Origin: Hemerocallis citrina
Taxonomy: Eukaryota; Streptophyta; Magnoliopsida; Asparagales; Asphodelaceae
Reading direction: 5' to 3'
Length of the DNA stretch: 64,000 nucleotides
Assembly (NCBI GenBank): GCA_017893485.1
Contig: CM030367.1
Coordinates: forward strand, 86,559,910-86,623,909
Both the position numbers and the translations under genes were made by a program. Below are positions 1,601-55,843 of this stretch, in pieces; within the stretch, counting starts at the first letter, position 1; every line of letters begins with the position of its first letter. Below the pieces are notes generated by a model, which worked only from the letters and a program-made list of their open reading frames with translations, ran no database searches and was not told where the DNA came from.

Positions 1601-1754
1601 AGACTTTCCATCAACCATTATTATTTGCTCTTGATTTTGTTCTAGCTTCATATTCTTTGATGTACCATGTTCTTTACTCTTTGTTTTCACTACTAGCTGT
1701 CCGTACTTGCTCTAACGGACATCTCCCCCCCAACTCTAGATGATCAAACTATAG

Positions 1755-1800
1755 GTGTACAAGGAGAATTGATCGAGAGCTTGGTGAGCAATTCTTCTAG
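1755..1800 (+). pseudogene. Conserved LTR terminal exon, copy A (1-nt deletion)
   Basis: The exon follows an acceptor-like CTATAG and aligns codon by codon with 47-nt exons in copies B, C, D and E. It has the shared Leu, Glu, Gly-Glu/Asp and final Phe-stop positions but is 46 nt long, one base missing after the eighth codon. The upstream exon would lie outside the window. The coding call rests on the five-copy substitution pattern; no protein family was recognised. Confidence 0.5.
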
Positions 1801-3186: not shown

Positions 3187-3525
3187 TGTCACGCCCCGCT
3201 TCCCAAAAAGGAATACAAAATACGGAATACGGATACGCGACATAAGTCCAGCGAATGGTTTTCAACATTTATAAGCTGTCAGGATCTTTACAACAAGTCA
3301 CAAGAAATAGCAAGAAGTAAACAAGAAAGAATCATCCACGCATGCATGAAACTAATTAATGTGATCAACAGAAATACTTGAAATAAATACAAGATTCTCA
3401 AATATTCAGATCTAGAACAAACAAGTCACATGTTCTGGGACAAAAATGCCCAATACAAGATTCAAGTGGCAATTACAATTTATTCAAAAGTAGGAAATAA
3501 ACTCGAGCAAGAACGCTAGCCAAGC

Positions 3526-3572
3526 CTAGAACACTTGGTCACTTACTCCCTCGGGAAGCTGATCACCAAAGT
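3526..3572 (-). pseudogene. Conserved LTR terminal exon, copy B (acceptor lost)
   Basis: Read on minus, the 47 nt end in Phe-stop (TTC TAG) and align with the exons in A, C, D and E around Gln-Leu-Pro-Glu-Gly. The acceptor, CAG in C, D and E, is CAA here, so splicing should be broken although the reading frame is kept. Confidence 0.5.
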
Positions 3573-3779
3573 TTGCAAGTTTAACAAATTGCAAGAAAAG
3601 GAAAGAGAAACAAAATGTCCGTCAATACAAGTTACGGGCCGCATGTAGTGCAGACAACAAGTACGAAAAATAAATAACAAGGATATAGAGTAGCAACAAG
3701 AACAAGTACTGAAGTAAGCATGGAAGGGATGTGACAGCAAGGTAGAATAACTAACTTTTAATCAAGAAATGGAATCAAA

Positions 3780-4095
3780 TAATATGGTGAGATAACAAGG
3801 TGCAAGTGACATGTAACAAGTATCAAGTAGCATGCAAGCAAGTATCAAGTAACAAGTGTCAAGTATCATGTTCAAGCAAGTAACAAGAATGAGCAAGTGA
3901 TCATGTTATTTTCAAGTCTTGTATCTAGTCCTATCTAGGTAGCACTTTATGCATCCCAAATTTTACCACATGGTTGCTACATTCAAATAAGTTACGTTTA
4001 GATTTCGTAGTGGATCATAGAAGGCAGTGTACTCAGGTACACGTATCAAGTATCAAGTAATCACGTGTTAAGTATCAAGTATCAAGTAAGATCTG
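3780..4095 (-). repeat. CAAGTATCAAGTA short tandem repeats in LTR B
   Basis: Units of about 6-14 bp (CAAGTATCAAGTA, CAAGTAACAAG) are dense at 3780-3900 and again at 4030-4095. The same position in E (13140-13550) has the same type. D, C and A have different units here. Confidence 0.7.
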
Positions 4096-4849
4096 TGGAT
4101 CCCCTCCGAGTACACCTCTCATGTGGGAAAGCATGTAGTCGGGTAAGCAAGTGGAAAACACGGCCCCTTTCTAAGTACACATTTCTGTATTTTCCACTAT
4201 CAGATCTTTCTCTTTAACCCCGACTTGATTTCTTGTTATTATTATTAAAGCAACCATGGACGTGCACAAACAAGGCAAGATAACATAGCAAGAAACTAGG
4301 GAAAAGTTCAAGTTGGATAGAAGACAAGAACGGGTGACAAACAACTCATCATAGACCAAGACAACGAGACTTCCAATTCTGGATAGTAAGACAGAGCTGC
4401 ACCAAATCTGAGATTTCCGTTGCCACAAGAGTGCAAACCTGGATCCATCAGAAAATCTAGAAAACAGACTCTCAGCCGAATCTAGCACATATACACAAGT
4501 CATATAATGACCACAGAAACAGGGTTCAAAACAGTGTTTTATGCAGAATTCAAGTTCAGCCAGAAATCGTAAAGTTGTATTCATAAGCATGAAAATGGCA
4601 TAAAAAATTACTGGTTAAATCTAAGAAAAATCTAAAAGATTCCCTAGTATGTCTAGTATCAGCAAATATATTTTCATAATATTCACTTTCAGATAGCATC
4701 TATATAATAAAACACAAAGAAAGCTATCAAGTGGCTCTCATTCAATAGGGTTGAAATTAATGGTCTAGATCTAACCTCACAAAACATATTTTCCCGCCCA
4801 AAAGTTTCCCCCAAAACTCAAACTCAAATTCAAATCCCAAAACAACTTT

Positions 4850-4905
4850 TTTATTTATTTATTTATTTATTTATTTATTTCTCTCTCTCTCTCTCATTCT
4901 CTCTC
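4850..4905. repeat. (TTTA)n(CT)n microsatellite
   Basis: About nine TTTA units are followed directly by a CT run, within LTR B. Confidence 0.85.
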
Positions 4906-6505
4906 TATTTACTCATAAATTTATATTTTCAGATTTCAGGTTTGTAAATTTTCAGATTTTTTATGCAATTTTTTTATTACTCATGTTACATTGAAAATAG
5001 CAAATGTCCCATCAACAGTTAAATTTCATCATTTTCCACACTTAAAGTTCTAAGAAGTTGGATTTTACACCCCCATTTATAATTATTTTTCAACATATAC
5101 TAATGGAAACATGGACTTTTATTTACAACTAATTGTTGTTTAACTATTCAAACATGAGCTACATAATTGTTGTTTTACTATTTACAAGACTTTCATATAT
5201 GCTGTATCGTTCCGAAGATGTGTCGTAGGCACGCCCACAGGTAAATCTAGTAGTCAAATAAATTTGGAAAACAAAAAAATACAGCAAGTTTATGAATATG
5301 AAATTTTAGACATAGCAGTACTAAAAGAGTGATAAATCACAAAGTATAACTCGAAATCCAAATCCGTCAAAGGTTAGTAAAATAGACAAATCAGGCTACA
5401 TTTCATATTCACAAAGTTTTAATCAAAAGTGACTGGAATCAGGTTGAAAATAGAGTTCTTTGCTAAATCCACAAAAATTATGGGTTGATCACAGTCATGT
5501 CTATTCATACCCAGAAAAATATTGAATCCAAATTTTACTTTTAACACCAGTTTTAAAATAATATAACATACATCAAACTCATAAAACAGAATCTGAAATT
5601 TCCAACACAACTGCAGTAAAAAATCAAAATTGAGATCTGTCAAAAGTTCTGAAAAATAGACAACGAGTCCTATGAATCATATTCACAAAATAATTTGATT
5701 TACTGACCTTAACAGGGTCTAAAATACCGAACCAAAACTGGGCAGCAGCAAAACGAAATTTCTTCTCATGCAATAAATCAAACAACTCATATGCACTAAA
5801 TCAAAATTAAATTATAATGCAAAACATGATATATTAGATATTCAAAACAACATGGTATTGATATTTAAGAAGTCTATTGCAAGATAATACAGCTAATACA
5901 CCAAGCATGCAACAAACACACAACTATCATAGATCACGAAGAACATATATACATGCATCAAGAGTCTATCTAGATCTAGTTTATTTTCATGTCATGTGTG
6001 TGACAACTATGATGATGGATCAAGACTATGAATGGATCAAACGAACGAGATCAAGATTTGTCAAGAGATGAACAGAAAACAAGAGCGAGACTACATGTGG
6101 TATTTTGTACTTGAATACAAACAAAAATTATACAAGTTACTTGCTTTAGGGTGAAGATGACGAATCCGACTGGAAGAATAGAATAACGGGAATGGATCCT
6201 GGGCGACGATCGACATGGATCTTGATGTTGCTGAAGATCAAGATGACCAAAATCGATCGGACGGCTCAGATTCCAAGATCAAGGTGATGATCAAGATCAG
6301 ATCAAATAGACGGTCCAGATCAAGGTGATTAAGGGCCGATATCAAAGTGATCGAGATCAAGGGCGATTGACGATCGATGCTCAAGATCAAGATGTGATGA
6401 TCACATGAAGATGATCAAGGCAACCATAGCGATCAAAGGCCAAGAATCAATGTGATCAAGAAACCCCACTGATGATGATGATCAAGATGATCATTCGACT
6501 GGAGT

Positions 6506-6943
6506 TCAACGGAAGCTTGATGATGATGCTACACTGGTGGAAAAGGTGGTCGATGGTGCACAGGGGCAGCGCTCAGGTTGGTGACTGTGGCGTGCAGTCG
6601 GAGAGGAAAGGCAGTCAGCAAGGTCGACGGGTGTAATGGAAGAGGCAGCAACTGGCGATAGTGTCGGGGACTGGACTGGCAACGGTGTAGGTGGCATTCG
6701 AGGATGGAGACGGGAAGAGGATGTGTCGCGGTGCATAGTTGAGGAAGATGACGGGGCTTCGAGATGGTGCTCGGTGGTCTGCAGGGGATCAAATGAAGGC
6801 GGAGGGAAGGTGGGTTGTTTTTGGCGATCAGGATTTGCAGCTCGAAGGTGGATCGCGGTGACAGAGGGCAGAGTAGGGTCGGGGAGCGGCTGTCGACTAG
6901 CGGAAGAGGAAGTCGACGACAGGGTGGAGGGTCGGGGTTTCAC
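6506..6943 (-). other. GC-rich Pro/Ser-rich leader frame in LTR B
   Basis: A GC-rich block just downstream (sense direction) of the LTR TATA box. The minus frame is open for about 145 codons and is rich in Pro, Ser and Thr, but has no ATG at its head and no recognised domain. Copies C and E have similar sense-strand open blocks in the same place. It may be a first exon; low-complexity composition alone could also keep frames open. Confidence 0.3.
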
Positions 6944-7035
6944 AGGGTGCGGGAGGGTTGAATATGAATAGGTAGGGGGTTGGCGGCTGAGTAATGAAGG
7001 GATTAGGGTTTTAATTAGGTTTAAGGTTTAACAGA

Positions 7036-7045
7036 GATTATATAG
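7036..7045 (-). promoter_or_regulatory. TATA box of LTR B
   Basis: CTATATAATC on minus, about 330 bp inside the sense start of the LTR and just upstream of the GC-rich leader, as in D (52866) and E (57921). Confidence 0.5.
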
Positions 7046-7373
7046 GAGATAGAAGTGGGTAATGGGCTATTGGATGCGAGTTAACGGGTTTTTAGGATCC
7101 AAATAGAGGAGAAATTAAATGATAATTATTTAGGCAAAGAAATAAACCAATCTAGAATTGAACAAATCATCCGGAGATAATATTTTGACAGAATTATTAA
7201 ATCACGAATATCCAAGGCCAAAAAACTGAATCGAAGGCAAGGCAGATAGATTTATTGAGAACGAAGAACAAATACATGGTTCAAAAGAACAGAAGAATAC
7301 AATTGGAACAAATACTCAGAAAAGCTAAATACATCCAAAATACAAGAAAAGGGAAAACAGGAGTTACACTTTC

Positions 7374-9929: not shown

Positions 9930-11950
9930 ATGGCAAATCGACCAACTATGCAGCCATCTTCATTCCACAACTCGCCCCACTATTGTTGCCCTCGTCGAGT
10001 GCGACCACACCAACACCCCAGCCTCCTCCCTCTCACTGACCGTAACCTCGCTGCGCCTCCCCCTGCTTTGCTGCACTGCATCCCAATGCTGCCTCCTTTC
10101 ACCATTGACAACCACCGCCAAGAACAACCGACAGCCAACCCGAAGTCCCCTAGCTGGCTTGCTCTAACTACTGTTGCTCCTTTGCTCACCGTTGTTGCTG
10201 CCTCAACTCCATCAACCCGAGCTTTTCCTGTTGTGCTGTTGTCCTCGGGCTTCGACGTCGCTCTTGCTCGCCCGTTGTCGCTATCTTGCTGTCATTGCCC
10301 ACTGCCATGCGCTCGCCTCTCTCGTACTCCCCGAATTATAAGGCAAGCATCTCTTGTACACAATTTATTGTTCTTGTGTGTATTTTCTTCGACATCCGGC
10401 AAGTAGGTATTAATTTGAATGTCGTATCTAATTGAATTGCATTATTGATTCATAGTTTTCTTTATTGTATCATGTTATTGAATCATAGTCTTCTTATCAT
10501 GCCATTGTTATTGATTTAAAGCTTGAGCCGTTGAATTATTGTATTATTAGACATTCAACTTTACTGACCTATAAATTTCTTAAGCTTGTACTTATGTTTT
10601 GACCCGGTTCTCGACACTGAAATTTATAACTTTGTACATAGAAATTATAGCACACTAAGTCTTGAATCTGGAACATCTTACGGATTCTATCCGGTTTATA
10701 AATTGTAAGTTATTGTTGTTTTCGTACTGCCATGTTATAATTTTCAGAGCTGAGACTATACACGAAACTAGTAAAGAATGAATTTATATGCATAGCTACT
10801 GTAACTATAATGTATCATGTAAATATGCATTGGAACCAGTAGAGAGTCTATTTTCTAGAACCTCCGACGGAATCGGATTTCCCGTGGCAGGGGGAAAGTG
10901 AAGTTGAGTACCAATAGGTGCTGTTGTCCAGAACTTGCATTGTTATGTTTTTGCATATAACCCCGTTATTTTCCGTATTTAATGAATTGAACTATGTATA
11001 TTTCATTTATTGCATAGCCTTGGTATCTTCTTGATGTTGTATTGATACTACCGTTTTCATCGATTGTACCCATTGCATAATTCTTGATACCATCGTTCTT
11101 ATTGATCGTATTAATTGCATGTTCATAACTGATTATAATGAAATAATAATAAGCCGGGGTAATAAAGATCGACTTAGTAATATAGAATATAGAAGAGTGT
11201 ACTCGAAAGAGGATATTGGTTACAACCCATATTGGTCATTGTTATCGGTCATATTGGTCATCGATTGATTGTGGATTACTGACTACAGTATCCCGATTCA
11301 TCGTGTATTGGTCATCGGTCATCGGTCATCGGTCATTGATCATTGGTCATTGATATTGCAAGACCCAAGTACATGACCCTGTAAAATTCACCACTATAGT
11401 CGAAACGTTCACTTGATTGTATGCACCTGAACCTGTGGTATGAGACGCAGGATTGCGTGCATTAGATAGGTTAATAAAAGTTTGATAGACTTAAAGATTG
11501 ACACTAAACATCGACTATTGGTTCATTGATATTGATTTTTGGTCATCGATTATTGATTATTTATTATTGTTTACCGACTATTGGACCCATTGAACATTAT
11601 TTATCGACCATAGTTTATTGATCATTAATTACCGACCAATGCATCATTTATTGATCCTATTATTGACTATTATTTCGATTATTATTTCGATTAATTGTTG
11701 ATTATTATTATCAACTATTGTTTATTGATTATTCATTATCGACTTTTGATTTTATTAACGTCTATCATTTATTGACTCTGATATCGTTCCAATATTTTGT
11801 TCTTGTTATATCGTTCTTTTGTTGTTTAACTGCTTTCTACTACTTGTCGCCCATGGCTTGCTCTAACGGGCATTTTCCTCATCTCTAGATGTTGAGATTG
11901 CAGGTATCACGGGGGAATTAACTGAAGGACTTGGAGAACTGATCTTCTAA
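9930..11950 (+). CDS. Candidate two-exon gene inside LTR copy C (exons 9930-10398 and 11904-11950)
   Basis: Exon 1 begins at ATG 9930 in the GC-rich leader and stays open for 469 nt. It is rich in Pro, Ser, Thr, His and Leu, has no recognised domain, and ends ...FSSTS plus one base. The next bases, GCAAGT, match the rare GC-AG donor consensus and are conserved in D and nearly so in B and E. The acceptor is ATTGCAG at 11903. Exon 2 supplies the two bases that complete the split codon, then 14 codons ending Phe-stop; it is the conserved exon seen in A, B, D and E. Splicing is phase 1 and keeps the frame, giving about 171 residues. Exon 2 as coding is well supported by substitution pattern; exon 1 is inference. 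Function unknown. Confidence 0.45.
11215..11780 (+). repeat. ATTGGTCATCGGTC / TTATTGATTATTG short tandem repeats in LTR C
   Basis: Two tracts: GGTCATC units at 11225-11370 and TTATTGATTATCGAC units at 11510-11780. They occupy the positions of differently composed arrays in the other copies. Confidence 0.7.
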
Positions 11951-12584: not shown

Positions 12585-12910
12585 TGTCACGCCCCACTTC
12601 CCAAAAGAGAATACAGAACACGGATACGTGACTAAGCCCAGCGAATGATTTTTATCATCCATAAGCTGTCAGGATCTTTACAACATTTCACAAGAATAAT
12701 TAGAGTCGGAAGCAAGAAAAGTCAACCATGCATGCATATATGAATCATAATACCAACATGAATTTATTTAATAATCTCAAATAAACCAGATTTGAACAAG
12801 TCAATAATCCTGGGTCACATTGCCCAAATACAAATGAATCCAAGTAATCAAGTACAACTGTTCAAAATAAGCATCAAAAAAGAAATAGATATAGCAAAAG
12901 CTCCAGCCAA

Positions 12911-12957
12911 CTAGAATCTCATATCACCTACACCATCTGGCACTTGATATATAAAAT
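12911..12957 (-). CDS. Conserved LTR terminal exon, copy E
   Basis: On minus, a 47-nt exon follows TTGCAG and ends TTC TAG. It aligns with A, B, C and D, with residues VPDGVGDMRF at its end. Length and phase equal those in C and D. The upstream leader frame that would join in phase is interrupted by a stop near 15095, so this copy is probably not fully coding. Confidence 0.45.
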
Positions 12958-13139
12958 CTGCAATTTAATGAATTACAGGAAGAGGAAAAGAAAACAAAAC
13001 TCCCGTCAATGCAAGTTACGGGCCGCTTGTAGTGCAGACAGAAGTACATGGAAAAGGGATAACTAATGACATGGAATAAATATGGTAACAAAATAAAATA
13101 ACTGCATGGCAAGATGAACAAGTGAAAGTGGCATGTAAA

Positions 13140-13555
13140 AAATGTCTAGTGAACAAGTATCATGTAAACAAGTATCAAGTATCAAGTGTCAAGAATCAAG
13201 TATAAGTAGCAAGTGTCAAGTATCAAGTAATCATATTCAAGTAGCAAGTAGTAAGTGTCAAATGATCATGTTCAAGTCTTGTATTATTACTATCTAGGTA
13301 GCACTTCATGCGTCCATCCTTTTACCACATGGTTGCTATATTCAAACAGTTTCGCTTTAGATTTCATAGTGGATCATAGAGGGCAGTGTACTTAGGGACA
13401 AGTATCAAGTAATCGAGCTCCAAGCTCTAAGTATCATATATCATGTATCATGTATCACGTGTCAAGTTGTGCAAGTAGCAAGTAATCACGTTTCAAGCGT
13501 GAAAGTGTCAAGTAATCACGTGTCAAGTTCCAAGTATCAAGTCATCACGTAGGAT
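13140..13555 (-). repeat. CAAGTATCAAGTA short tandem repeats in LTR E
   Basis: Dense CAAGTATCAAGT, AAGTAGCAAGT and ATCACGTGTCAAGT units in two tracts (13140-13260 and 13400-13555). Confidence 0.75.
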
Positions 13556-16500
13556 CTGTGGATCCCCTTCCGAGTACACATTTCTGTATTTTCCACTATT
13601 AGATCTTTCCCTTTAATATCGACTTGATTATTTATTATTATTATCAAACAGGCATGTGCATGTACAAAACATGGCAAGAATAATATGGTATGAACAAGTA
13701 ACAAGTTCAGGTTGAAAGATAAACATGCACAGGTGAAATACAACACATAAAAGATTTGGTCAGCGAGAATTCTAGTTCAGGACACTAAGACAGTACTGCA
13801 CTAAATCTGGAATTTCCGTTGCTACAAACATGCAAACTTGGATCCGTCAAAGAATCTGGAAAATAGACTCCCGGCCGAATCCAGCAAGTAAATATAAGTC
13901 ATATGGTATTTCACAAAAAACATAACTCAAAACAGGTTTGAATTCAGAAAACGTGTTCAGCCAGAAATCAGAAGTTCGTATTCAAGAACAGGAAAACAGC
14001 ATGAAAACTCACTAATTAAATCCAAGAAAAGTCTGGGGTATTCCCTAGTATGTTTAGTATCAGAAAATAAAGTTTCATAATTTTCCATTATAGATAAAGT
14101 CGTCAAGTAAAATCAAAAAGCAACAAGGTACGGCAGTTTTGTAAATTTGGAATCACAAACATTGCAGTACTAAAATAGCAATATCTCACAAAATACAAAT
14201 CGAAATCCAGATTCTTCAAAAGGTGATAAACTAGATACAATAGTATAACTTTCATATTTAGAAAGATTTTTCATACAACAAGTATAATCAGATCGAAATT
14301 ATGTATCTTTACTGAACAGCATGAAAATTATGCTAGTATAGTAATTGTTCACAAGCATAAAATAGTTGGTATAACTCATTAATTAAATCCACAAAAATTC
14401 AGGGTTAATCCCAATCAGGTCTAGTTATACTCAGCAAAATATTGGATCAAAATAATACTTTTAACATTAGAATAAAAATAGATTAGTCCAAAAAATTCAT
14501 AAAATTCATATAAAATGAAATCTGAAATTTTTCTACACCACTATAGTAAAATAGACATAACTCGCAACTCATAAATCGAAACTGAGATCTGTTAGAAGGG
14601 TTGGAAAATAGATAGAATTCTCTACAGTTCATGTTCACAAATAATTTTAGTATGCTGACCTTAATAGGGACTAAAATACTGATCAAAACGAAAAAATTGG
14701 CAAAACAGAAAATATCTTTCATGCACAAAATCAACTAGTTCATATGAAACTCATCTAAAACATAACCAAACATGATATATGGTGTACTAGATGTCCAAAC
14801 ACATTGTATAGGGTATTTCACAAGTCCACGACGAGTTATACTACGAATAACACATCAAGCATACGAGATCATACAAATAACATGCATGTATACAACAAGA
14901 AGTGGTCATCCCTAGGTTATTTCATGACAGGGATGTCATGTGACAACTACAGGAGGGTCAGCACAATAGAGACAAGATCAACAAGGGGTTTCACACAAGA
15001 ATTTTTTAGAACCCAACTACACTACAGGCGGTATTTAGTACTTGTATTACACAAAGAAAAGAATACAAGTTATTTGCCTGAGAGACGACGATGGGAACGA
15101 ACCAGGAATTAGAATAATGGGAATGGATCCTGGGCACGAACTCAATATCAACGAACGAACTGATCACGAGCAAGATCACGAACACAAGGAACAACCGATC
15201 GCGGAAATGATCAGACAGATCTCAATGATCAAGAGGACAATCAAGATGTGATGATCAAGATCAAGAAGATCGGGCGGCCAATATCAAGACTGATGGAGAT
15301 CATGATGATCAAGATGATCAAGATGATCACGACGATCGACAGCCAGTATTTAATGTGATCAAAACTTGATCAAACAGCACACCCACTGGCTTCAGCTTAG
15401 CTCAACTGATGACGGCTGAGAGTGGATGGCAGCGTAAGGCAGTGGTTAGCCAGCGATGCTGACGAGAGGTGCATAGTGGAGCAGGGTCGGGTGCCACGGT
15501 GTAGGGATGATCACAGGATAGGGGAACAAAAAAGACAGGGGTGCTGGTGCTTGGGTGCAGACGAGGTGCTGGTGAACGGGAGGAGAAGGGAGATGGTGCC
15601 GGAGTCGCTACTGTCGTCGCCGGAGCAGCACGGCGTGGTTGTGCGTCACGAAGTGGTCGCAACAGGGAGGCAGGAAACCATAAGGAGCGACTGGCGAGGA
15701 TGCGGCACTGGGCTGGCGCTGTCGTCGAGTGGCAAGGCGCGACAGGGAGGAGGTAGCACCGGGGAGAGCTCGGGATAAGAGGAGGATAGAGAGGCAGAGC
15801 GCCGGAGGTGCAAGGCGGGATCGGGGGTGTAACGCCCCGATTTTCGGTAACTGGGAAACCACAACATAAGCCAGAATCTTTTCTTCAATTAGCCACGATA
15901 CACAGAAAAGACAGAAAAATTTGAAACTATTTATTCAACACAATGTATTAGAAATCCGAATGTTACAAAATTGCAATGCATTACAACAGTGTTACAATAA
16001 TATATTTACAATCCCAAATGTTACAACTTTCAACATATTACATCAGAGTACAATGAATAAAGAACAACACTTGGTATTTCACTTGGATGCTTTCCAACAA
16101 ATAAATAGATTACAAAATTGTTACAATGGAGCAATAGTAAACAACATATAATGTAGCGGAAATAAAAACGACTCTTGCTTCTCTCGCCATGAGTCCTCTT
16201 GAATCCTGTACCTGTACTTCTGCAATCCGATACCTATTGAAATGGGGACGTCAGTACATATACTGACATTTTTAAGGCTGATAACTAGCAGCGATTCTCC
16301 ACTTAAGCAAACGATTGATGAAAAGAGAAACGTGTATATATAATTGATGTGTAAGTGTATGCTATGCCTTAGACTTTAATACAAGATTGACTAACGCAAT
16401 GATGCACCTATTCTAATGCAAGCAAGTCTCTGGAACAGCATGCAGCCCATACTACATACGCCCCATCTCAAGCTGTTTCTTCATATATAGGGATTTGAAC

Positions 16501-16745: not shown

Positions 16746-17207
16746 ATCAAAAGAACATAGGGTCTCGCATGCGCAGGGTAGTGCGAAGCCTACTCTGTGG
16801 CACCCCTGGGGTCTCGCAAATGCAGGACTGTACGTAGCATCTTGTGGCACCCCAGGCCACGGTATTTCAGGAATTAACAGACGAGATATGCAACTCGTGC
16901 TCCCAACTCGTGAGATGACACCGTATGTATCCCTTTGACGGGAAGGTACAACCCAATAACACTGCCTAGTGTCGGCCTATAGGACATGTCGGATCATAAG
17001 GAATCACCCTTAACACCAACTCTTTTTCTTCGGCAAAAATGATAATAAGTAAAGGTTAAGTAGTAATAGCCAGAAGTTACTACCCTAACGATGTCACTAA
17101 ACCCAAACACTCTCACGAGGTTTTCAATAACTTTCTTATGATTTCCCCGATCCAACTCATGGCCTATCGATCCAAGACACCGGTGACAGAAGTCTCTCTC
17201 ACTCACC

Positions 17208-17509
17208 ATTACCCCTAACTCGGATCTCGTCAACATTCTCGGCCCACGATCAACCCACATCAGTTAAGATCCCTCGGTGCTCGAGGTGTGATTTATCCAC
17301 AGTTTCTAAGGTGGTTAAATGCAATTCTTGATGGTCGATAGCCCCTACGGCAATTATGAGACCCTATCACTACCCCTAACTCGGATCTCGTCAACACTCT
17401 CGGCCCATGATCAACCCACATCAGTTAAGATCCGACAGTGCTCGAGGTATGATTTATCCACAGTTTCCAAGGTGGTAAGATGCGAGTCTTGATGTTCGAT
17501 GACCCCTAG
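17208..17509. repeat. Two-copy ~161-bp direct repeat in LTR F
   Basis: TACCCCTAACTCGGATCTCG through GATAGCCCCTA recurs at 17208-17348 and 17370-17509 with few changes. Confidence 0.85.
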
Positions 17510-17879
17510 GCTAGCTTTTATCTAGCTAACAATACTAGTGACTTTCCCAACCATCTTTTACCATATATTGAAGATGAAGCATGTGCACATCATATGGCCC
17601 AATCTCAATTTGAAACGCATACAACTAGAACTCATGGGTTATTTTCCCAAATTTGAACTACGACAATATGCGACTAGGTTCATGGGTTCTTTCTCAAAGT
17701 TGAGCTAGAATCACCTAGAACCTAATTGCATGGGTTCCTCGCCAATTCGAGCTAGAACTATCATGGAGCTAGTTTCATGGGTTTCTTCTTAAAAATCGAA
17801 CTAGAGCAAATGTGGAACATGGGTTCATTTTAATAGTTCCATTAGATTAGCATGCAAGCTAAACTCATGGGTTCCACTA

Positions 17880-18562
17880 CAACATACAACTTAAACATGC
17901 ATGGATTCTTTTCAGTCTAAAACAACTACACATCTAAAACATGGGTTCTTTACTAGAACTACTACCATAACACAAGCATGCGTTCTTTACTTAGAACAAC
18001 TACAATAACTCAAGCATGGGTTCTTTACTAGAACTACTACAATAACACTAGCACGCTTATGACTTAAGCATGGGTTTCTTTACTACAACAATCTACAATA
18101 ACTCAAGCATGGTATACCTACTATAATCAACCTACAATAATTCAAGCATGGTATACCTACTATAATCAACCTACAACAACTCAAGCATGGTATTCTCACT
18201 ATAATCAAACTACAACAACTCAAGCATGGTATACAACTTAACATGGGTTTCTTTACTACATCAACCTACAACAACTCAAGCATGGTATACGTTCTATAAT
18301 CAACTCAAGCATGGGTTTCTCACTACAATCTACAACAACTTAAGCATGATATATTTACTATAATCAACTCAAGCATGGGTTTCTCACTACAACAACTAAA
18401 GCATGGTATATTTACTATAATCAACTCAAGCATGGGTTTCTCACTATAATCAACCTACAACAACTCAAGCATGGTATACTTACTAAAATCAACTCAAGCA
18501 TGGGTTTCTCACTATAATCAACCTACAACAACTCAAGCTTGGTATATCTACTATAATCAACT
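17880..18562 (+). repeat. Minisatellite (~38 bp) in LTR F
   Basis: Units contain AACTCAAGCATGG, then TATACCTACTATAATCAACC or GTTTCTCACTATAATCAACC, then TACAAC. The array resumes at 52011-52449 and 55844-55990 after the two insertions it received. The left half is more diverged. Confidence 0.85.
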
Positions 18563-23952: not shown

Positions 23953-24539
23953 TGTAACGCCCCGAATTCCAAAAACAACTGAATTTGAGATTCCACAGGA
24001 TCTTTACACTTCATTCGTACAATTTTACAAGGAATTTAAAACTTTATTTCAACAATAATTACATCAGACTCTTTTACATTAATACGCAGCGGAATTAATA
24101 AAATACAACAATAATGAATGTACAATTGTTACAACTTTAACATTTAAGTAATCAATAGCATCAATTCTCTTTATATCTTGATGTAACTCCAAACCCTGCA
24201 TATAAAACTGTGGGTGCATCAGTTGCTTACAACTGACGAAATATTATACACGGCCATCCTCTCTATGCCGGAATAGTATAATGATTCTTAAATACTTTAG
24301 CAAATACAAGCTTGATCACAAACAAAGCTACAAAGGGACTATCCTGTTGATGTCGTGTTGTGCAGTGCACTTAGTCCTTAATGAAGTTATTATATTACAT
24401 GACACTAACGCGCACTTGTTCGGATTCTATGCATCCCATACTACATAGGTCCGAGGGCAAGCCCTTAATCGTTCTTCATCTTGTAGGGTTCAATCCCTTG
24501 TCATGACTTAATCTACTACTGTAACTACGGTAAGTATCC

Positions 24540-25115
24540 TAGATGTTTTCTGATATACGAACTCATGTCTAGGTGCCCTGGAGGGAATCCCAACGCACTG
24601 ACACATGACTCATCATGCAGGCATCCTGTGGTAATTCAGCTCCTACCATAGACATGACACCACCCGCAGTCGTCAAACACCCCACGAGCGTCGCCACCGG
24701 GACGGTACTCTGGAGCAGTATCCATGCCCTATCATGACTCATCCTGGACATCCTGGGATACGCTCTCGCCGCCAATCCAATGGCCCTCATACTCAATGTT
24801 TTTCTCTTACTTTCATCACATCTTCACTATGTATCTATCTGTAATTTCGATAAGTATCCTAGATAGTCTATGATCTATGAACCCATGTCCAGGCAGCCTG
24901 GAGGGGAATCCTACGCACTGACACGATGCATCGAGCAGGCAACCTATGGACAATTCAGCCTCCGCCTTGGAACAATGGCACCACCCATAGTCACCAAACA
25001 CCCCACAAGCGTCACCACCGGGACGATACTCTGGAGTAGTATCCACGTCATGTCACGACGCATCGTGAAGACAGCCTGTGCATACCCTCACACCACCAAT
25101 CCAATGGCCCTCATA
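24540..25115 (-). repeat. Two diverged ~280-bp blocks inside the LARD LTR
   Basis: Both hold the CACTGACAC...CACCGGGACG-TACTCTGGAG core (24595-24716 and 24917-25038). LTR G carries one counterpart at 47034-47280, reversed. Confidence 0.8.
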
Positions 25116-25623
25116 CTTGTGTTTTTCTCTTACTTCCATCACAGCCTTACAAAATTTGTTTTAAAAGAAAATCATCACAACCTAGAGCTAGCTTACCCTA
25201 CCGAACTTAAATCAAAACAACAGAGACAGTCAGCCTACCTGGCTACTTCTTAAGAGACACTCAACCCTCAACGGTTAGCTCTCGAAATTATAAATAATAC
25301 TGCCGGTCACTAGGGTTTCGCCTAGCCTCTAGATTCCAACAACTATCTCTTTGTAGAAATCAACAATATTTCATAATCAATCTCAAATAATATTTCCATT
25401 TCTTTTGTTCACAACTCTTTTCTCAAAAACATTTCTTTTATAATCTCATAACATGAGAACGATTCAATTCGATATCTTTATCAATTTCATCTTTCATATC
25501 CTTGTATGCATTTCATAATAAACTCATTCAAGTATTAAAATTCATAAAATCTCGTATTCCAACTTAAGTAACTTTCATTTGTCAAAATCAAATTCAAACT
25601 TAAGAACAAAAACAAGTTCGGTT

Positions 25624-25860
25624 CAGTCGACTGGTAGTAGTATCAGTCGACTGTTCTGCGAACATCAAAACATCACAGTCGGTTCAGTCGACTGTTGCCA
25701 AAGAATCAGTCGGCTGTTCCGCGAATACCTTGAAAACTCAAACACTAAAATTCAGGACAGCAGCAGTCGACTGTGAAAGTAGATAGTAGACTGTCCTGCC
25801 GAGGAAAGACCAAATTCTTATACTTGCCAGTCGACTGTGGAAGGTAGATAGTCGACTGTT
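25624..25860. repeat. Cluster of CAGTCGACTG palindromes, left LARD LTR
   Basis: Perfect CAGTCGACTG at 25624, 25643, 25685, 25763 and 25828, with near copies (CAGTCGGCTG, TAGTAGACTG, TAGTCGACTG) between. Spacing is irregular (about 19-65 bp). Confidence 0.9.
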
Positions 25861-26800
25861 AATTACACCAATTGCAACTTGCATATATTTTCTGACCTTT
25901 TAATTGATTTGTACTTCCATATAAGAATATAGATCATTTCCAGAATGTAATCCTTTGAAAGCAATAACGTACATATTCTCAAATTCTCAGGTTTCTCAGT
26001 TTTGCCATAAAATAAATCTTTTCTTTTAAAATACATAAAAACACATGTAATCAATTTCCCCAAAATTGTTGTCTTTCACCAAAACTTTTCTTATAAAATT
26101 TTACACTCATAAAACAAATATTAGTGAGATTAGATCCACACTTCTTAACCATACTAGCAACACACATTTCTTGTGTATACATTTACATTATTTTAACCAA
26201 TGTCTCAACATGTATTAATTTCATGCAATCACTTTAATTCTAGCATTCCAACTAGCAATCATACTAATTTAGAGAAATAGAATAAGCAATTTGCATCTAC
26301 CATACCAATCATAATTTAGCAATTCAACTCTACTTAAATTTGCATGCAATCTCATAATGCCAATTCAATTTCAACAAATAACGTATGTATCATCTATCAT
26401 GTAAATTCCTATTCCTAAATTAGAAAGCATTTAAGAAACACCCACCTAAAGTTGAAGATTTATACTCAAATGAACTCTTAGAATTACGAGCTCCTAAAGA
26501 AAACTCTAATTGCAACTCCTCGAAATCCGCGCACCCAAATAAGGTCTTCAACCCATTTCGGCAAGCAACAATCATCAAGAGCATCTCCATCCCCACTCCA
26601 TTTCAGCAACATCAAGAACAACTCCCATCTTCTTTCATATACACATACCATGTATGTACATATATATACATTAGTATATGTATATAGGTAAGTGGAATGG
26701 TGATTAGGTGGAGAAATGGGCAAGGCTTTGCTGGATTGGGTTGGTTTTCTTCTCGGAAATGACAGGAGAGAGGGAGGAGAAGAGATGAGAGAATGAGAGA

Positions 26801-26812
26801 GCATTTTTATAG
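26801..26812 (-). promoter_or_regulatory. TATA box of the left LARD LTR
   Basis: CTATAAAAATGC on minus, about 830 bp inside the sense start; the right LTR has the same at 33166-33177. Confidence 0.55.
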
Positions 26813-27638
26813 ATTAACTAATGGGTAGTTAGAATAACCACCCCTCACATGAATACCACTAACCCCATTATTTTAGATTTGAAACTTGCTTTCCCTCCTA
26901 CTTTCAAAATCAAACTTTCAGATTTTTCCCTCCTCTCTAAACAGTCCGACCCTCAAAAGTGTGCACATCGCACGTGTGCACGTGTACGTGCTTTGTGTAC
27001 AAAATAATTTATTTATTTCATCTCTTCAAAACAAAATATATAAAATTAACTTTAAAATTATACTTTTCATGCACAATTAAAATACACACACATTTCATGA
27101 AAATTTATTTTGAAGGAAGAACGCAATTAAACACGTGCGTCGCCCGTAAAATCTCAAAAATACAAAAATTAATTTTGTCAACCGAAAAATATTTATAATT
27201 AATTGGAATGCAACATAAAGTATATTTAATATACATATTCGATAATATACTCAAACGTACAGAAAGCACGTATATTGCACGTAGAAAATTTATTTTAATA
27301 AAGATAGTCAAAAATTGAATTTTCGTTTACAAAACAAGTTCAAACATGTTTATAAAAAAATAAATGATTGAAATCCATTGAAAACTTTGCACGTAACGGT
27401 GGAATATCCGAAATCGACCCGTGCATCGATAATACGTAAAAAGCACGTAAAAACTCAAAGATTTGAAATTTAGCATTCGAGTTGTCTCAATGGGATTTTG
27501 GGAATACAGAATTGCATAAATAATTGGAGTTCAAAATACATATCAAAATGCGTTATGAATATCATTAATAGTAGTATAAAATGCACGTGCGTAACACCCG
27601 AGGGCAAAATTGTCAATTAAATTTTGCGGGGTGTTACA

Positions 27639-27650
27639 CTCTCCCCCCTT
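27639..27650 (-). promoter_or_regulatory. LARD polypurine tract
   Basis: AAGGGGGGAGAG on minus, abutting the left LTR (its 3' LTR); repeated at 34016-34027 for the second unit. Confidence 0.85.
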
Positions 27651-30291
27651 AGAACAGTTCCGTCCCCGGAACTCACTATGGTAAAGGCTGTATTTTGTAC
27701 ACACCAAAGAAAATATCAGTATAACATATAGAAAACTACAAACATTAAGAAAATACATATAGCATAAAAGTAAGCAATGTGGAAGGATAAGACAAAATTT
27801 ATTTAATAAAATTTATGAGCATCAAAATTTATGAGAACAGAACAAGAAAACTAGGAAAGTAGCATAAGAAAATAAATGCGACAATAAAGGAAAGAGTTTA
27901 CATATAAATTACTATCAAGTAAACCATTAGATAAAATGATAAAATAAACTTAGTCATTAATTGTAAAATAGTTCAGAAACAATGTGATAAAGAGGAAACA
28001 TAGTCAATGGGTACTTTATAGATAGATTCAATACTAAAAATTCATCATTGTAATAAATGGTAGAAAGTCGTAAACCAAATTGGTACTATACGACAAAAAC
28101 TAGCAATTTAAAAGAAGGCTGTTGGATAACAGTTTTGAGAAATATACGAGAAGGGAATATAGTAAAGTATAGAAAACATAAAATGATTCTGTATACAAAT
28201 TATTATCATAAAATAATTTGTAAGGTAATTATAATAATTATGCATACAATTTGAAAATTAGGCATACATCGAAATACTTCGAATTATTCAGTAGAGCGAG
28301 AAAGCCAACTTACAAAAATTGCATACTTGCATAGGCAAAAAATTATAGGGGTGAAACAAATAGCATGATATGAAAATCATAAATGATTTGTAGTAGTAAA
28401 ACAAGACGTCGTGGTAGTAAAACATGCTATTGAAGTAGTGCGAACACTAATTATATAAAAATAAATTATGAATCAAAGAAAAGTATAGATACAAATTTTA
28501 TTTTTGTTAGGTGAGTACCAAATAGCAATATAAAACACGTGAAGATGTATGAGATACTTACTCATTAAAAGATTCAAAATAAAGAAGAAAACAGCAAGAT
28601 AATTGAGATTAAGTAGCAAATATAAAAGTTTGATAAATATAGAGATTTGTATAAACAATATAATGATAGATTTGCAAAATGTTATAAGTTAGTACATAAA
28701 TAGAATAGTGGTGGGTAAATATTATAGGAAAACAAAATAGGGGTCATTTAAGTAGACAATATTCTTCTGGTGTAGGTTCGTCTCGTTGGTATCCAACTGC
28801 AGACTTTCCTATCTCGATCTCAAGTTACATAATTGCTTCTATGATATTCGGTTGCAGTTTGCCTTCTGGACATTCGATTGCAAACTTTGCCTCACCGACA
28901 TCCAGTTGCAGTTTGCCTCCAATGATGTCTAGTTGTATATTTGCCCTCTCGACATCAGGTTGCACCGAAATGGAAGATGGTAAGATGTAATCTTCCATAT
29001 ATACTTGGATATGGGATGTTTAATAAAGTATGATGTTATGTTTAAAAATCAATGATACAGAAAAAGATGTTACACAACGAAATATCAAAATAGGTGTATA
29101 GGATATATCAAACATAGACGGTACTAATTATTAGTATTGAAAAATTATTTATAACACCAAAACAAATAATGTAGAATATATGCACGTGTTGGAAGTACAA
29201 ATGAAAACATTAATGATGTAATGTAGCAAATTAGGGCAATAGACACAAACAATTATACATAAAAATAATAATATAGTAATTTGAGGAGGGTGAAATTATA
29301 TGTATAGTAAGTATCTTGAAATACATGACACATATAAAATCAATGGAAAATATATATATAGTAATCAAGAATCTAAAGACAATTTAGAATTTGAGAATCC
29401 GGTAGAGTATAAGTGAGTATATGCATTATATTAAAGAAGAGTAAATTACAAAATTAATGAATATAACAAAACAAATTAGTAGACAATATGTAATAATGAT
29501 AATATTGAATGCAGATAATAAATCAAATTAGTTTGTTGTATTTTTACGGATAAAATATTCAATCTCGTTAAAATATACTGAAGTATATAAGACAATACGA
29601 GATAACGAAAGAATATCGTATCAGAAAATCAAATCATGTAAAATGAATACACATAAGCAAAATTCACAAGCGAAATTCAAAAATATAATAAATGAAGAAA
29701 ATAATAGTTGTAATATAAATTTAATAGAATCCATGAAGTAATAGCGAATATAGACGGATGACCATAAAGTGACATAAAACACAGTAAACAGAATTTTAAA
29801 ACTGAAGGAAAAACAAATTTAAAAAAAAAATCAAGACTAAGGAAAATAGACAAATAATAGGCATTGAAATGATTTAATAGTATAGGAAGATATTTATTTG
29901 GAAAATATTAAATGTTAGAAAAATACTATGATGAAGGTCCATAAAAATAATTTGAGGGGAAAGTGTGTTTATGTGTAAGGTATCATAAATAACGGTTCAA
30001 ACCAACCACACTTCTACTGCGCTACTCTGATACCCAGGAAAAAATGAGCTCGCATACAATCTCAAATCAATGTATACAAGGAGAGCATCATGAATGAATC
30101 TGAATGTAAATTTAATAACAACTTCCATTCATGACTTCAACCATCCAATAGGGAAAAGGGTGAAGAAAATATCAGTATATAGAGCAACACAAATATAAAT
30201 CACTTACATTTAAATCTCTATAAACTGAACTCACACTCTAATGTCCACTTCTAGGGTGTCGTTCCTTATAAATTTGTACTACTTAGAAGCG

Positions 30292-30305
30292 TAGCTCTGA
30301 TACCA
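30292..30305 (-). promoter_or_regulatory. LARD primer-binding site
   Basis: TGGTATCAGAGCTA on minus, three bases inside the right LTR. It matches the initiator tRNA-Met 3' end used by many plant LTR elements. Confidence 0.92.
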
Positions 30306-30308
30306 CTC

Positions 30309-33300: not shown

Positions 33301-34015
33301 TCTAAACAGTCCGGCCCTCAAAAGTGTGCACATCGCACGTGTGCACGTGCACGTGCTTTGTGTACAAAATAATTTATTTATTTAATCTCTTTAAAACAAA
33401 ATATATAAAATTAACTTTAAAATTTTACTTCTCATGCACAACTAAAATACACACACATTTCATGAAAATTTATTTTGAAGGAAGAACGCGCTTAAACACG
33501 TGCACCAAATTACGTGCATCGCCCGTAAAATCTCAAAAATACAAAAATTGATTTTATCAACCGAAAAATATTTATAATTAATTGGAATGCAACATAAAGT
33601 ATATTTAATATACATATTCGATAATATACTCAAACGTACAGAAAGCTGGTTATTGCACGTAGAAAATTTATTTTAATAAAGATAGTCAAAAAATTAATTT
33701 TCGTTTACAAAACAACTTCAAACATGTTTATAAAAAAATAAATGATTGAATCCATTGAAAACTTTGCACGTAACGGTGGAATATCCGAAATCGACATGTG
33801 CATCGATAATACGTAAAAAGCACGTAAAAACTCAAAGATTTGAAATTTAGCATTCGAGTTGTCTCAATGGGATTTTAGGAATACAGAATTGCATAAATAA
33901 TCGGAGTTCAAAATACATATCAAAATGTGTTATGGATATCATTAATAGCAGTACAAAATGCACGTGCGTAACACCCGAGGGCAAAATTGTTAATTAAATT
34001 TTGCGGGGTGTTACA
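30309..34015 (-). repeat. LARD LTR, right (shared) copy
   Basis: Same layout as the left LTR with small indels. Palindrome cluster at 31982-32217, TATA at 33166-33177. Confidence 0.9.
31982..32217. repeat. Cluster of CAGTCGACTG palindromes, right LARD LTR
   Basis: Same order and spacing as in the left LTR. Confidence 0.9.
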
Positions 34016-49590: not shown

Positions 49591-49600
49591 GGCCATAAAG

Positions 49601-52449: not shown

Positions 52450-52865
52450 TGTAACCCATGTTTTTATTTTTTATGTATTTTGGAGTGTATTTTTCATTTT
52501 TGTGTATTTTTATATCTCTTGTAATTTTCGGAACCGTATATTGGATTTATTTTCAATATATATTCTTTTTCTTTTCATTTGAGCTCCTTGTGTTGTTTGT
52601 TCGTCATTTTGGTTCGTTTCGCCATTTTGAGTTCTTCTCTTCATTTTTGGCCTCATTATCTTTAATATATTTTTCCATGGCGATGTGATGGATTTTTTGT
52701 GGTGATGCAAACCTATGATTTTTGACCCCTAATGAGATTTTTAAGAGTCATAGAATTCACTATAAATTGTATTCCTATTTGAAATCTACCCAATACCCAT
52801 TACCCATTTGCATACCTATTACTACATACTCATACCCACAACCCATTAACCCACATTACTCCTCC

Positions 52866-52875
52866 TATATAAATA
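52866..52875 (+). promoter_or_regulatory. TATA box of LTR D
   Basis: TATATAAATACC in the LTR's 5' part, followed by CCTAACCCTAATCCC and a CT-rich leader. Confidence 0.6.
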
Positions 52876-55179
52876 CCCATAACACCGTAAACCCTAACCC
52901 TAATCCCTAATTAACTTTCTCTCTCTCTAATAACATCTGACCTCTCCCTCTCCTTTTCAATCCCAGGTGCATACTCTCCCCAAACTGAGCCCCTCCCTCT
53001 AGCCTCCAATTCGAGCCACCACATCTCCTTGAAATCCGACCACCTCACAACCCTACAAACCCTCGTCTCCATACAAACCCTTCAACCCATACACCCCCCT
53101 TGCTAGCCGGCACCAAGAGCACCACCTTCAACATCCAAATCATCACAAATCTCTTCTCTTTGGGTTTCTTCAAGTGGGCATTCTCCCCTTCGTTCGTCGC
53201 ATCAAGGAGTTTGTTCGTGTGGGAATTTTGTTCGTGGGTTTGCTTGGATTCGCATTTAGAGAAGGTTCGCTCGTGGGTTTTGTTCCTAGGACTGACTGTA
53301 TCGTTTTCGACTCCAAAAAGGCAAGTAACTTGTACTACAATTTATTAGGTTGATACAAGTCAAAAAGTTCACATCTAGTGTAGTTGGTTCTAGAGACAAT
53401 CAAAAACTTATTTTTCCTTGATGGGTTTTGTCTCTATTGTGTTAAATTGGCCATAAATGACTTATGACACCAAGATTGATAGGATTATGACCTAGGTTAT
53501 GCCCAAAACTTGATTTTGATGCATGTATGTGATCATTGCATGAATTGTGTTTGATTGAATGCCCATGTGAAAATAATAGGAGTGGACATGTTAGAAACCC
53601 TCAATCATGATGTTTGGATGTTTGGTAGATTGTATTTCAAGTTTGGTTGAGTTTGGATCAATATTCATGAAGTTATGATGTTCTTGATTAGAGGTGTGAA
53701 ATCTGTATTTGCTGCTTATTCTGTTTTGATTGCTGTTTTCGTCCATGCTACAGTTCGAATCTTAATTCCAAAATAAAAGATGGATTTTAGATAATTTTGT
53801 CTATTTTCAAACCCCACTGGTTTTACTTGATTTGGATTTCGTATGACTGAGATATGAAGGTTTTGGTACAGACGTGTCGAACAATTCCAGATTCTGTTTT
53901 GGGTTAGTTTTGTTAACAAACTATTTTCAAAAACTATTCTATACATAATATCTTGAACTAATATTTTGCTCAGTGTTACCTTATGATATTAGGGACTATC
54001 CAGATTTTTTATGAATTTTAAAGACAAGTTTTGTGCGGTGTTTCATATTCTTTTCTAAAATCTACTCATGCTGTAAATTGCGCGCTGTTCAGTATAGAAC
54101 TCTGTTTTCACTATAATTCCTTGTACTATGTGAAAATTATTTGTGAAATATGAAATTAAAATCTATCTATTTTCATATCCCTTTGGTGGAATTAGATTTC
54201 GATTTACTGATTGCGAGATATCCTAGTTTTCGTACAGCAGTGTTGAGAATTCCAGATTCGTCGAACTATGTTTTTGTGTTGCTTCTTATTTTTTATAACT
54301 GATCTATACCTACTGGAATATTTTTGAAACTTGTTTTTTTGAGTCTATAGCTATAGGGGAATACCCCAGATTTTTCGTGGAATTATTTAATGAGTTTTCA
54401 TGCCGTTTTCATGCTTTTGAAGTTGTTCCCCTGTTTTCTGGCTGAACCTAAATTTTGTATTCGAGTCAGTTTTGAGCTGAGATGTCGTGAACTAGTATGT
54501 GACTTTATTATACTCATTGTATTCGTGTGGATGTCTAGTTTCCAAATTCTTTGAAGGATCTAGTTTTGCATTTCTGTAGAGTTCAGAATCACTATTTTAG
54601 TACTGATTGGTCTTGCTGTCCTAATTATGAATATAGACTATTTTGCTCGTATATGTGAATGTATATTATCCATGCATGCTGATTTATTTCCATGAACCCA
54701 AACCTGATTATACCATGTTAGTTTGACATTATTTCGTACCCACTCATGCATGTTGATGACCATAATAATAAAAGTAACTAAGCCGGGGTTTAAGGGAAAG
54801 ATCTAGTAGTGGAAAATATAGAAATGTGTACTTGGAAGAGGACCTGTGTCCTGCCTGCCTGTTACGTGTTCATGACTACATGATTCACGATCCTGTTTAC
54901 CTGTACCTGATTACATGCTTCCCTATAGGAAGGTGTTCTCGGAAGATAACCACTAGGTTATGCTTGTTTCCTGTACCTGACTGCATTACTTCCCTTAGGA
55001 AGGTGTACTCGGAAGAGAACCACTAGGTTCTACCTATTCCTGTTTCCTATACCTAAGTACACTGCCCTATGGACTCCACTATGAAATCTTACTAAGAGAA
55101 ACTGTTTTGTTGTAGCAACCATGTGATAAAAGTTAGGGCGCATGAAGTGCTACCTATATAGTAAATAACACGATTTGAC

Positions 55180-55345
55180 ATAACATAGCATGATTACCTG
55201 TTACCTGATTATCCTGTTACCTGATTACATGTTTACCTGTTTACCTGAATATCCTGATAATTGATACATGTTTACCTGTTACCTGTTTACTTGACACTTG
55301 ACATATATTACCTGTACCTGTTAGTATACCATGTTGTTAGTTAGT
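55180..55345 (+). repeat. TGATTACCTGTTACCTG short tandem repeats in LTR D
   Basis: Units of about 8-16 bp based on TTACCTG, at the position of CAAGTATC arrays in B and E. Confidence 0.8.
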
Positions 55346-55450
55346 TTCTCCATGTGCTTGTATCCTACATTATTTGTGACCCACGATTGCAATTGACGGG
55401 TACTTATTTTCTTCTTTTTTTCCCTTTTCCTGCAAATCTACTAATTGCAG

Positions 55451-55497
55451 ATCAGGATGGTCAGTTGCCTGAAGGTATTGGCGAGATGATGTTTTAG
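55451..55497 (+). CDS. Conserved LTR terminal exon, copy D
   Basis: The 47 nt follow ATTGCAG and read, after two phase-completing bases, QDGQLPEGIGEMMF-stop. Length and phase match C and E. Against C, all differences in the last 12 codons fall at first or third positions. The leader frame that would join in phase is stopped about nine codons before the donor, so the full gene is probably broken in D. Confidence 0.5.
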
Positions 55498-55843
55498 ATG
55501 CTGGAGATTCTGTTTTATTATTATTATTTTCATTGTTGCTTAAATTGGAATAAAGTGTATTTGGTTTATTTGGATATTATTTGTATTTGGGCAATGTGAC
55601 CCAGAATATTTATTTTTCTCTGGACTCTGATTTATTTGAGAATATTGTATTTGGTTTCAAGTAAATTTCTGTTGGTAATTTGTTGTAAGTATTCATGAGT
55701 GGTTGTGCCTTTTGCTTCCGACTCTGATTATATCTGTGATGTGTTGCAAAGATTTCTTGAAACAGCTTAAGGATGATGAAAATCATTCGCTGGGCTTTTA
55801 TTACGTACTTGTGTTCCGTATTTTTGGGAAGCGGGGCGTGACA

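Follow-up and report, generated by a model that had tools for sequence, protein, structure and literature searches.

We analysed a 64,000-nucleotide stretch of the Hemerocallis citrina genome (C10:86559910-86623909 of the 3.78-Gb assembly; hereafter the window), which holds five ends, A to E, of the long terminal repeats (LTRs) of one diverse retrotransposon family, each terminating in GGGGCGTGACA or a near match to it. A short block near the 3' end of these LTRs is, judging from how its sequence has evolved, very probably a protein-coding terminal exon under purifying selection, and it likely serves as an alternative C-terminal tail of Gag, added by splicing. The exon-bearing family, with LTRs of 3-4 kb, appears to be an old and diverse group of plant Ty3/gypsy retrotransposons, Tekay/Del-like in kind. 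The five copies of the exon in the window are the following:

11889..11950, plus strand: LTR exon of copy C, 62 nt (2 nt and 20 codons including the stop), behind a CTCTAG acceptor that ends at 11888; frame VEIAGITGELTEGLGELIF, then the stop
55451..55497, plus strand: LTR exon of copy D, behind a TTGCAG acceptor that ends at 55450; frame QDGQLPEGIGEMMF, then the stop
12911..12957, minus strand: LTR exon of copy E, acceptor TTGCAG; frame FIYQVPDGVGDMRF, then the stop
3526..3572, minus strand: LTR exon of copy B, acceptor AG changed to AA; frame FGDQLPEGVSDQVF, then the stop
1740..1800, plus strand: LTR exon of copy A, with a one-base deletion (one gap relative to B-E), behind a CTCTAG acceptor that ends at 1739

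A first-pass annotation of the window had described this block as 47 nt in phase to the stop in B, C, D and E and 46 nt in A, with the acceptor of B changed to AA, and these lengths and their coordinates are confirmed. The start that it gave to the exon holds for B, D and E and is probably too far downstream for A and C, in which the acceptor AG that relatives keep lies 15 nt further upstream (CTCTAG, ending at 1739 in A and at 11888 in C). Because this upstream AG is kept in relatives, and the inner AG of A and C is absent from related lineages such as L268, the exon of A and C is more likely 61 and 62 nt long, respectively. The longer exon leaves the reading frame unchanged, being 2 nt plus whole codons, and in all copies the first two bases complete a split codon. 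The encoded peptide is acidic, with a consensus of about DxxxDQLPEGIGEQxF (for example DQLPEGIGEMMF), and typical exon ends are FGDQLPDGVGDQKF, FGDELPAGIGEQTF, HKFTGTEGVIPEGLGEQRF and QDGQLPEGIGEMMF, each followed by the stop. That this stop always directly follows Phe is true of the window; genome-wide, the last residue may also be Tyr, Leu or Trp.

The window copies alone already carry a codon-like pattern. Over the last 12 codons, the gap-free copies B-E have 5, 10 and 0 invariant columns at codon positions 1, 2 and 3. When A is included the count depends on where its gap is placed: 4/9/0 if a single base is gapped at the best place, 5/8/0 if the gap is put elsewhere, 4/6/0 when A is right-justified and 2/5/0 when it is left-justified, so that the 4/8/0 reported earlier is correct give or take this placement. 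A skew this strong would arise by chance with a probability of about 1e-4 (5/10/0) or 2e-3 (4/8/0). When all 36-column windows without gaps in the LTR alignment are ranked by invariant-column skew, the top place goes to the exon in its exact reading frame, both of 311 (B, C, D, E) and of 820 (B, D, E). For the share of differences that fall at third positions it again ranks first among the B, C, D, E windows; in the B, D, E set it is outranked by three overlapping windows near D 55115, which have few differences and contain stops in all three copies. In the five-copy alignment the exon falls outside the gap-free set owing to the deletion in A, and the best window there, near D 54511, is weaker. 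A codon model fitted to the window copies gave a ratio of nonsynonymous to synonymous rates (omega, or dN/dS) of 0.098 with a likelihood ratio of 25.0, compared with a maximum of 7.2 in background fits along both strands of the same alignment (507 fits of 662 planned). With nine LTRs (A-E and four relatives), the exon again reaches 25.0 and none of 590 background fits exceeds 9.5; the background window that attains 9.5 contains 9 in-frame stops.

The same selection is seen between lineages across the genome. A pattern search for an LTR end followed by the primer binding site (PBS) TGGTATCAGAGC, a sequence that we take to fit the initiator methionine transfer RNA, returned 52 sites, and 32 of them (20 + 12) were examined; the exon is present in 20 of the 32 and absent in 12. 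Sixteen genome sites and the five window copies made up a test of 21 lineages, from which L279 (a recombinant), L309 (an incomplete stretch) and L310 and L315, both with a shortened in-frame variant of the exon (IDGPxEQTL and the stop), were left out. Across the 21 lineages omega is 0.26 with a likelihood ratio of 37.1, and the two shifted frames give 1.8 and 1.5. Internal and terminal branches of the tree give equal values (0.25 and 0.27), so that the exon stayed under selection while the lineages diversified, beyond their ancient branches. Frame-breaking one-base changes occur in three of the 21 lineages, A and L278 having lost a base and L284 having a T inserted. The mean pairwise difference at codon positions 1, 2 and 3 is 0.33, 0.25 and 0.53 in the exon, a periodicity that resembles that of the gag end (0.24/0.20/0.48) and of the protease start (0.39/0.28/0.50) of related elements, and is unlike that of the intron between gag and protease (0.51/0.47/0.55).

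Two groups of close copies, each of 21 sequences including C or D, show how the exon fares at the level of individual insertions. In the C group the exon is gap-free, with 60 coding nt in 21/21, the upstream acceptor AG is kept in 19/21 and a premature stop occurs in 2/21; indels are found in 0/21 copies within the exon, in 10/21 within the preceding 60 columns and in 3/21 within the following 60. In the D group the frame is kept in 20/21 and the acceptor AG in 21/21, with a premature stop in 2/21, one of them caused by a lost base; indels affect the exon in 1/21, the preceding 45 columns in 10/21 and the following 40 columns in 0/21. Differences from the column majority fall 11/5/19 over the codon positions in the D group and 26/18/17 in the C group, and the even spread of the latter is as expected of inserted, no longer coding copies of a once-selected exon; these differences presumably arose mostly after insertion. 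None of the 16 genome C-like copies that can be aligned to the LTR end (of 20 fetched) has a PBS. The first-pass annotation had suggested that a peptide under selection is encoded in LTRs that commonly pass for non-coding, and had named a dN/dS near 1 and frequent frame-breaking indels as results that would speak against it. Between lineages dN/dS is far from 1, frame-breaking changes are confined to 3/21 lineages, 0/21 of the C group and 1/21 of the D group, and the proposal is supported.

Two ways of denying the exon a present coding role have to be weighed against these data. That the pattern is chance, or a constraint on a non-coding RNA in the LTR, gains something from the small initial sample of five sequences and from a scan that covered a long LTR, but we hold it to be highly improbable: the pattern is reproduced in 16 further lineages and tops both the 507 and the 590 background fits, and neither the reverse strand nor the shifted frames show anything of the kind. 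More improbable still is that the exon is a fossil, ancestrally coding and without a role in the lineages behind these copies. The window copies, without a PBS and resembling solo or 3' LTRs, would suit such a fossil, as would the even distribution of differences among the C-like copies, but the constraint on terminal branches equals that on internal ones.

A C-terminal tail joined by splicing, probably that of Gag, fits the evidence better than an independent peptide of the LTR. The full-length relatives carry a 5' LTR, the PBS TGGTATCAGAGC, gag, protease, reverse transcriptase (RT), RNase H and the integrase zinc domain; in element e283 the same parts are present as decayed pieces, and in L289 the Pfam domains follow one another in the gypsy order (Retrotrans_gag, RVP_2, RVT_1, RT_RNaseH, Integrase_H2C2). 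From 16 fetched stretches and L289, seven gag-protease junctions could be read (e283 twice, e277, e273, e268, L322 and L324), the remaining stretches yielding none. In all seven an intron of phase 1 separates the two genes, with a single base of the split codon before the donor and the other two after the protease acceptor: gag stays in frame up to VVA or VIA and one further base, GTAT follows, and beyond the intron come TAG, two bases and (V/I)IxV. This intron is 128-159 nt long, with lengths that differ modulo 3, and contains 50-59% T, compared with 15-28% in the gag exon; codon periodicity is seen in the gag end and the protease start and not in the intron between them. The LTR exon has the same phase as the gag donor. 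A donor at the end of gag and an acceptor leading to a stop, the arrangement expected of a Gag-only isoform, are both in place (7/7 junctions, with matching phase), and both gag and pol precede the exon of the 3' LTR.

The leader of these elements has splice signals of its own. Eight leaders were read, and in each of the six that precede a gag an acceptor lies 3 nt upstream of the gag ATG, which suggests that the GC donor of the LTR (described below) and this pre-gag acceptor remove an intron of the 5' untranslated region that holds the LTR intron, the LTR exon, U5 and the PBS. The pre-gag acceptor reads TGCAG or TTCAG (L325-L329, L289). Such a weak GC donor, long kept, could restrain the splicing of genomic RNA.

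We propose that the phase-1 donor at the end of gag is used with two alternative acceptors. Joined to the acceptor just before protease, with removal of the 128-159 nt intron, it would give Gag-Pro-Pol; joined to the acceptor of the exon in the 3' LTR, so that pro, pol, U3 and most of R are skipped, it would give Gag with a short acidic tail and a stop, and in this way ample Gag without Pol. The exon would act in the 3' LTR, and its duplicate in the 5' LTR would merely follow from the way in which LTRs replicate. What computation shows is that the exon is under coding selection and in which phase it starts, that an intron, with a phase read likewise, separates gag from protease, and that there are relatives with both gag and a PBS; from phase and anatomy we infer the joining of gag donor and LTR acceptor, whose product would supply the excess of Gag. 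Taken as a whole, with a Gag-tail isoform made by splicing over pol, the exon kept in the LTR for that use and its 5' copy a by-product, this mechanism is in our judgement rather probable.

The LTRs have further anatomy that could offer the exon a different partner, and the corresponding features of the window are these:

3187..7368, minus strand: solo LTR copy B, 4182 bp, with TGTAAC...GTGACA ends, the 5-bp duplication GAAAG on both sides and no PBS after it
52450..55843, plus strand: solo LTR copy D, 3394 bp, flanked by ATGGT and ATAGT
12585..15827, minus strand: LTR copy E, its 5' end truncated by another LTR that ends at 15828
52866..52875, plus strand: TATA box of LTR copy D (TATATAAATA)
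7044-7038, minus strand: TATA box of LTR copy B (TATATAA)
53321..55450, plus strand: intron-like stretch of copy D, from the GC donor (AAG/GCAAGTAACTTG) to the exon acceptor
6144 (B), 15077 (E) and 10343 (C, GCAAGC): first intron base at the GC donor

The five LTRs end at 2120 (A, plus strand), 3187 (B, minus), 12254 (C, plus), 55843 (D, plus) and 12585 (E, minus), and these ends stand tail to tail in two pairs, A and B separated by 1067 bp (2120/3187) and C and E by 331 bp (12254/12585). Copy B has the TG...CA ends and the exact 5-bp target duplication of an LTR retrotransposon, and the flanks of D agree at 4/5 bases; no clear target duplication was found for A, C and E. None of the five is followed by a PBS, and all have the appearance of solo LTRs or 3' LTRs. 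The donor upstream of the exon is of the rare GC type (GCAAGT-like) in B-E and in the relatives e271, e283, e268 and L257, and is mutated to GA or AC in the C-like copies L253 and L265. From this AG/GC-type donor to the exon the distance is 1.5 kb (C) up to 2.6 kb (B), and from the exon acceptor to the 3' end of the LTR it is 351-393 nt in B-E. An AATAAA follows the exon by 25-52 nt in A, B and D and by 143 in E, with none within 150 in C; the region is AT-rich and this signal is weak evidence.

What lies upstream of the GC donor, exon 1 of the LTR, was read in 23 LTRs: 15 C-like copies, window copies B-E, e271, e283, e268 and the 3' LTR in L257. Five of the 20 C-like copies lack the donor region and stand outside the 15. 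The phase-1 frame that would enter the LTR exon does not stay open beyond 16 codons in 17 of the 23 and has no open codon at all in 12, closure at the junction being mostly by TAAG/GC, and its median open length is 0 codons, compared with 45 and 38 in the other two phases. Among the 20 C-like copies, similarity to C begins at most 10 nt from the donor in nine and within about 110 nt in six more; five are cut inside the intron, and L250 has an extra similar block upstream. Because similarity to C mostly starts at or near the donor, exon 1 can scarcely be aligned even between closely related copies. In the C-like LTRs L246-L265 this GC-rich exon 1 varies as if exchanged or evolving very fast. 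The LTR's own exon 1 is probably not the upstream partner of the LTR exon. Two candidates of this kind were rejected: a single small gene made up of exon 1 and the LTR exon, its frame being closed at or near the donor in 17/23, and a multi-exon gene inside the LTR intron, for which the nine LTRs offer no second coding-like window above the ratio of 9.5.

These data bear directly on the two other owners that the peptide might have. A small protein encoded by the LTR itself, even by solo LTRs, would start from the TATA box and run from exon 1 through the GC donor to the LTR exon. The TATA boxes of B and D, the AG/GCAAGT-type donor shared by B, C, D, E and relatives, the acceptors before the exon and the long phase-1 frames of a minority of LTRs all agree with it, but the early closure of phase 1 in most of them, an exon 1 that is largely unalignable among C-like copies, the absence of any ATG from the predicted exon 1 of D and the presence of the pre-gag acceptor, a more natural partner for the GC donor, make it quite unlikely. 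The tail might instead belong to another protein of the element, such as an isoform of pol, reached from a different phase-1 donor; selection requires just some phase-1 partner, and all internal genes lie upstream of the 3' LTR. This too we consider unlikely, given that the gag donor is the sole conserved phase-1 GT donor seen (pol was not scanned for others) and that pol of L257 ends at a stop before the 3' LTR. Pol of L257, read through two internal stops, closes with a last stop codon, beyond which come a purine-rich tract and the beginning of the 3' LTR (TGTAACCCC). Its end reads LVRVA, stop, NPHSPGESTWELEEEIQ, stop, KFAHLFE, which we assume to resemble an integrase C-terminus with a chromodomain-like part, the feature expected of the Tekay/Del clade; Pfam finds no domain in the 51-aa piece tested. 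With pol closed by a stop of its own, its direct C-terminal extension into the LTR exon was rejected. In e273 the end of pol appears to be chimeric and rearranged.

Several observations weigh against assigning the exon to Gag: (i) a match in phase alone has a one-in-three chance of arising; (ii) the proposed intron from gag to the LTR would be about 6-7 kb long, by estimate; (iii) the singularity of the gag donor as a conserved phase-1 GT site depends on a survey in which pol was not scanned; (iv) the phase-1 frame of exon 1 is open for 58-404 codons in 6/23 LTRs (L249, L251, L253, L259, L262 and e283), with an in-frame ATG in three of the 23 (L253, L259 and e283), and in copy C it is open for 175 codons given a second GC donor at 10400; (v) the gag-less relatives e271, L330 and L331 keep the LTR exon (L271, L307 and L305), with the acceptor intact in 2/3; (vi) premature stops occur in three of the 21 lineages (L272, L273 and L284); and (vii) protease was not found in the L317-L319 stretches, which belong to other LTR families and served as a control for the intron. 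The gag-less relatives (e271 here as L287) have no gag between the leader and a T-rich stretch resembling the gag-protease intron, and are a probable non-autonomous subfamily.

The window contains other repeats and elements. The element at 23953-34015 on the minus strand, in which neither gag nor pol has a long frame, carries 3.7-kb LTRs that belong to a different family (TGTAACACCCC...GGGGCGTTACA) and a PBS adjoining 30308. Its LTR F likewise contains a TATA box, together with a donor (GT) and an acceptor (TGCAG), but the short frame is not the same in the element's two LTRs. Repeat units of about 68 bp lie in tandem at 49597-50784 and 41965-42489, with one frame open for 380 codons, and related tandem arrays at 17207-18562 and 52010-52455 each adjoin a 92% similar 570-bp stretch, in swapped order. 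The open frames at 35891-40207 and 61736-62500 we take to be look-alikes of Tat-type gag/pol and of a copia-type integrase.

If the tail belongs to Gag, the excess of Gag over Pol, a standing question, becomes in the exon-bearing family a directly testable question of splicing; and a selected coding exon can reside at the far end of an LTR, a region mostly regarded as non-coding. The family is large, a first look giving 4018 candidates for one LTR stretch and 3685 for another (40 of each were scored), so that its LTR copies may give host genes a ready splice acceptor with a short in-frame tail. In viral and prokaryote collections, the conserved LTR motif matched only viral, bacterial or archaeal contigs, which we take as chance matches. 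Among the papers listed by a literature search covering titles and abstract openings, with subscription journals mostly outside it, none describes a coding exon that is reached by splicing and sits at the 3' end of an LTR in plants.

The proposed mechanism has parallels in known elements. In Drosophila copia, barley BARE1 and Arabidopsis EVADE, according to the accessible parts of the sources, splicing near the end of gag produces a Gag mRNA with a stop soon after the junction (PMC3735527, PMC12786077); in copia it takes out nearly all of pol, 2950 nt (PMC3735527), and in BARE1 (a 104-nt intron) and EVADE (the protease domain removed) the stop arises by frameshift (PMC3735527, PMC12786077). 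The likeness is an excess of Gag through a Gag-only splice form, here as a proposal. These three elements are Ty1/copia, whereas the exon-bearing element is Ty3/gypsy by its protease-RT-RNase H-integrase order; and, in contrast to the frameshift stop of BARE1 and EVADE, the stop here belongs to a conserved, selected exon inside the LTR. Closer in lineage are Ogre, a plant Ty3/gypsy element in which removal of an intron is needed to translate the whole polyprotein, as the available part of one report has it (PMC6317226), and the centromeric CRR, a plant Ty3/gypsy element likewise with spliced transcripts; splicing is also named for Ogre, CRR and the env RNA of Bagy2 in the section at hand of another (PMC3735527). 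For Tekay, the portion of Neumann et al. at hand reports no intron. Unlike the situation in Ogre and CRR, the intron here lies between gag and protease, and a second, distant acceptor is proposed in the LTR. Protein coding within an LTR is itself shared with the CRM and Reina chromoviruses, in which, as far as the parts seen of the papers go, the gag-pol frame continues directly into the 3' LTR (PMC3605345, PMC3059260); but where that frame is uninterrupted, the exon described here stands behind a splice acceptor, and pol of L257, the one element read there, stops before the LTR. Taken together, Gag-only splice forms are already known, and a terminal exon inside the end of the LTR appears to be new.
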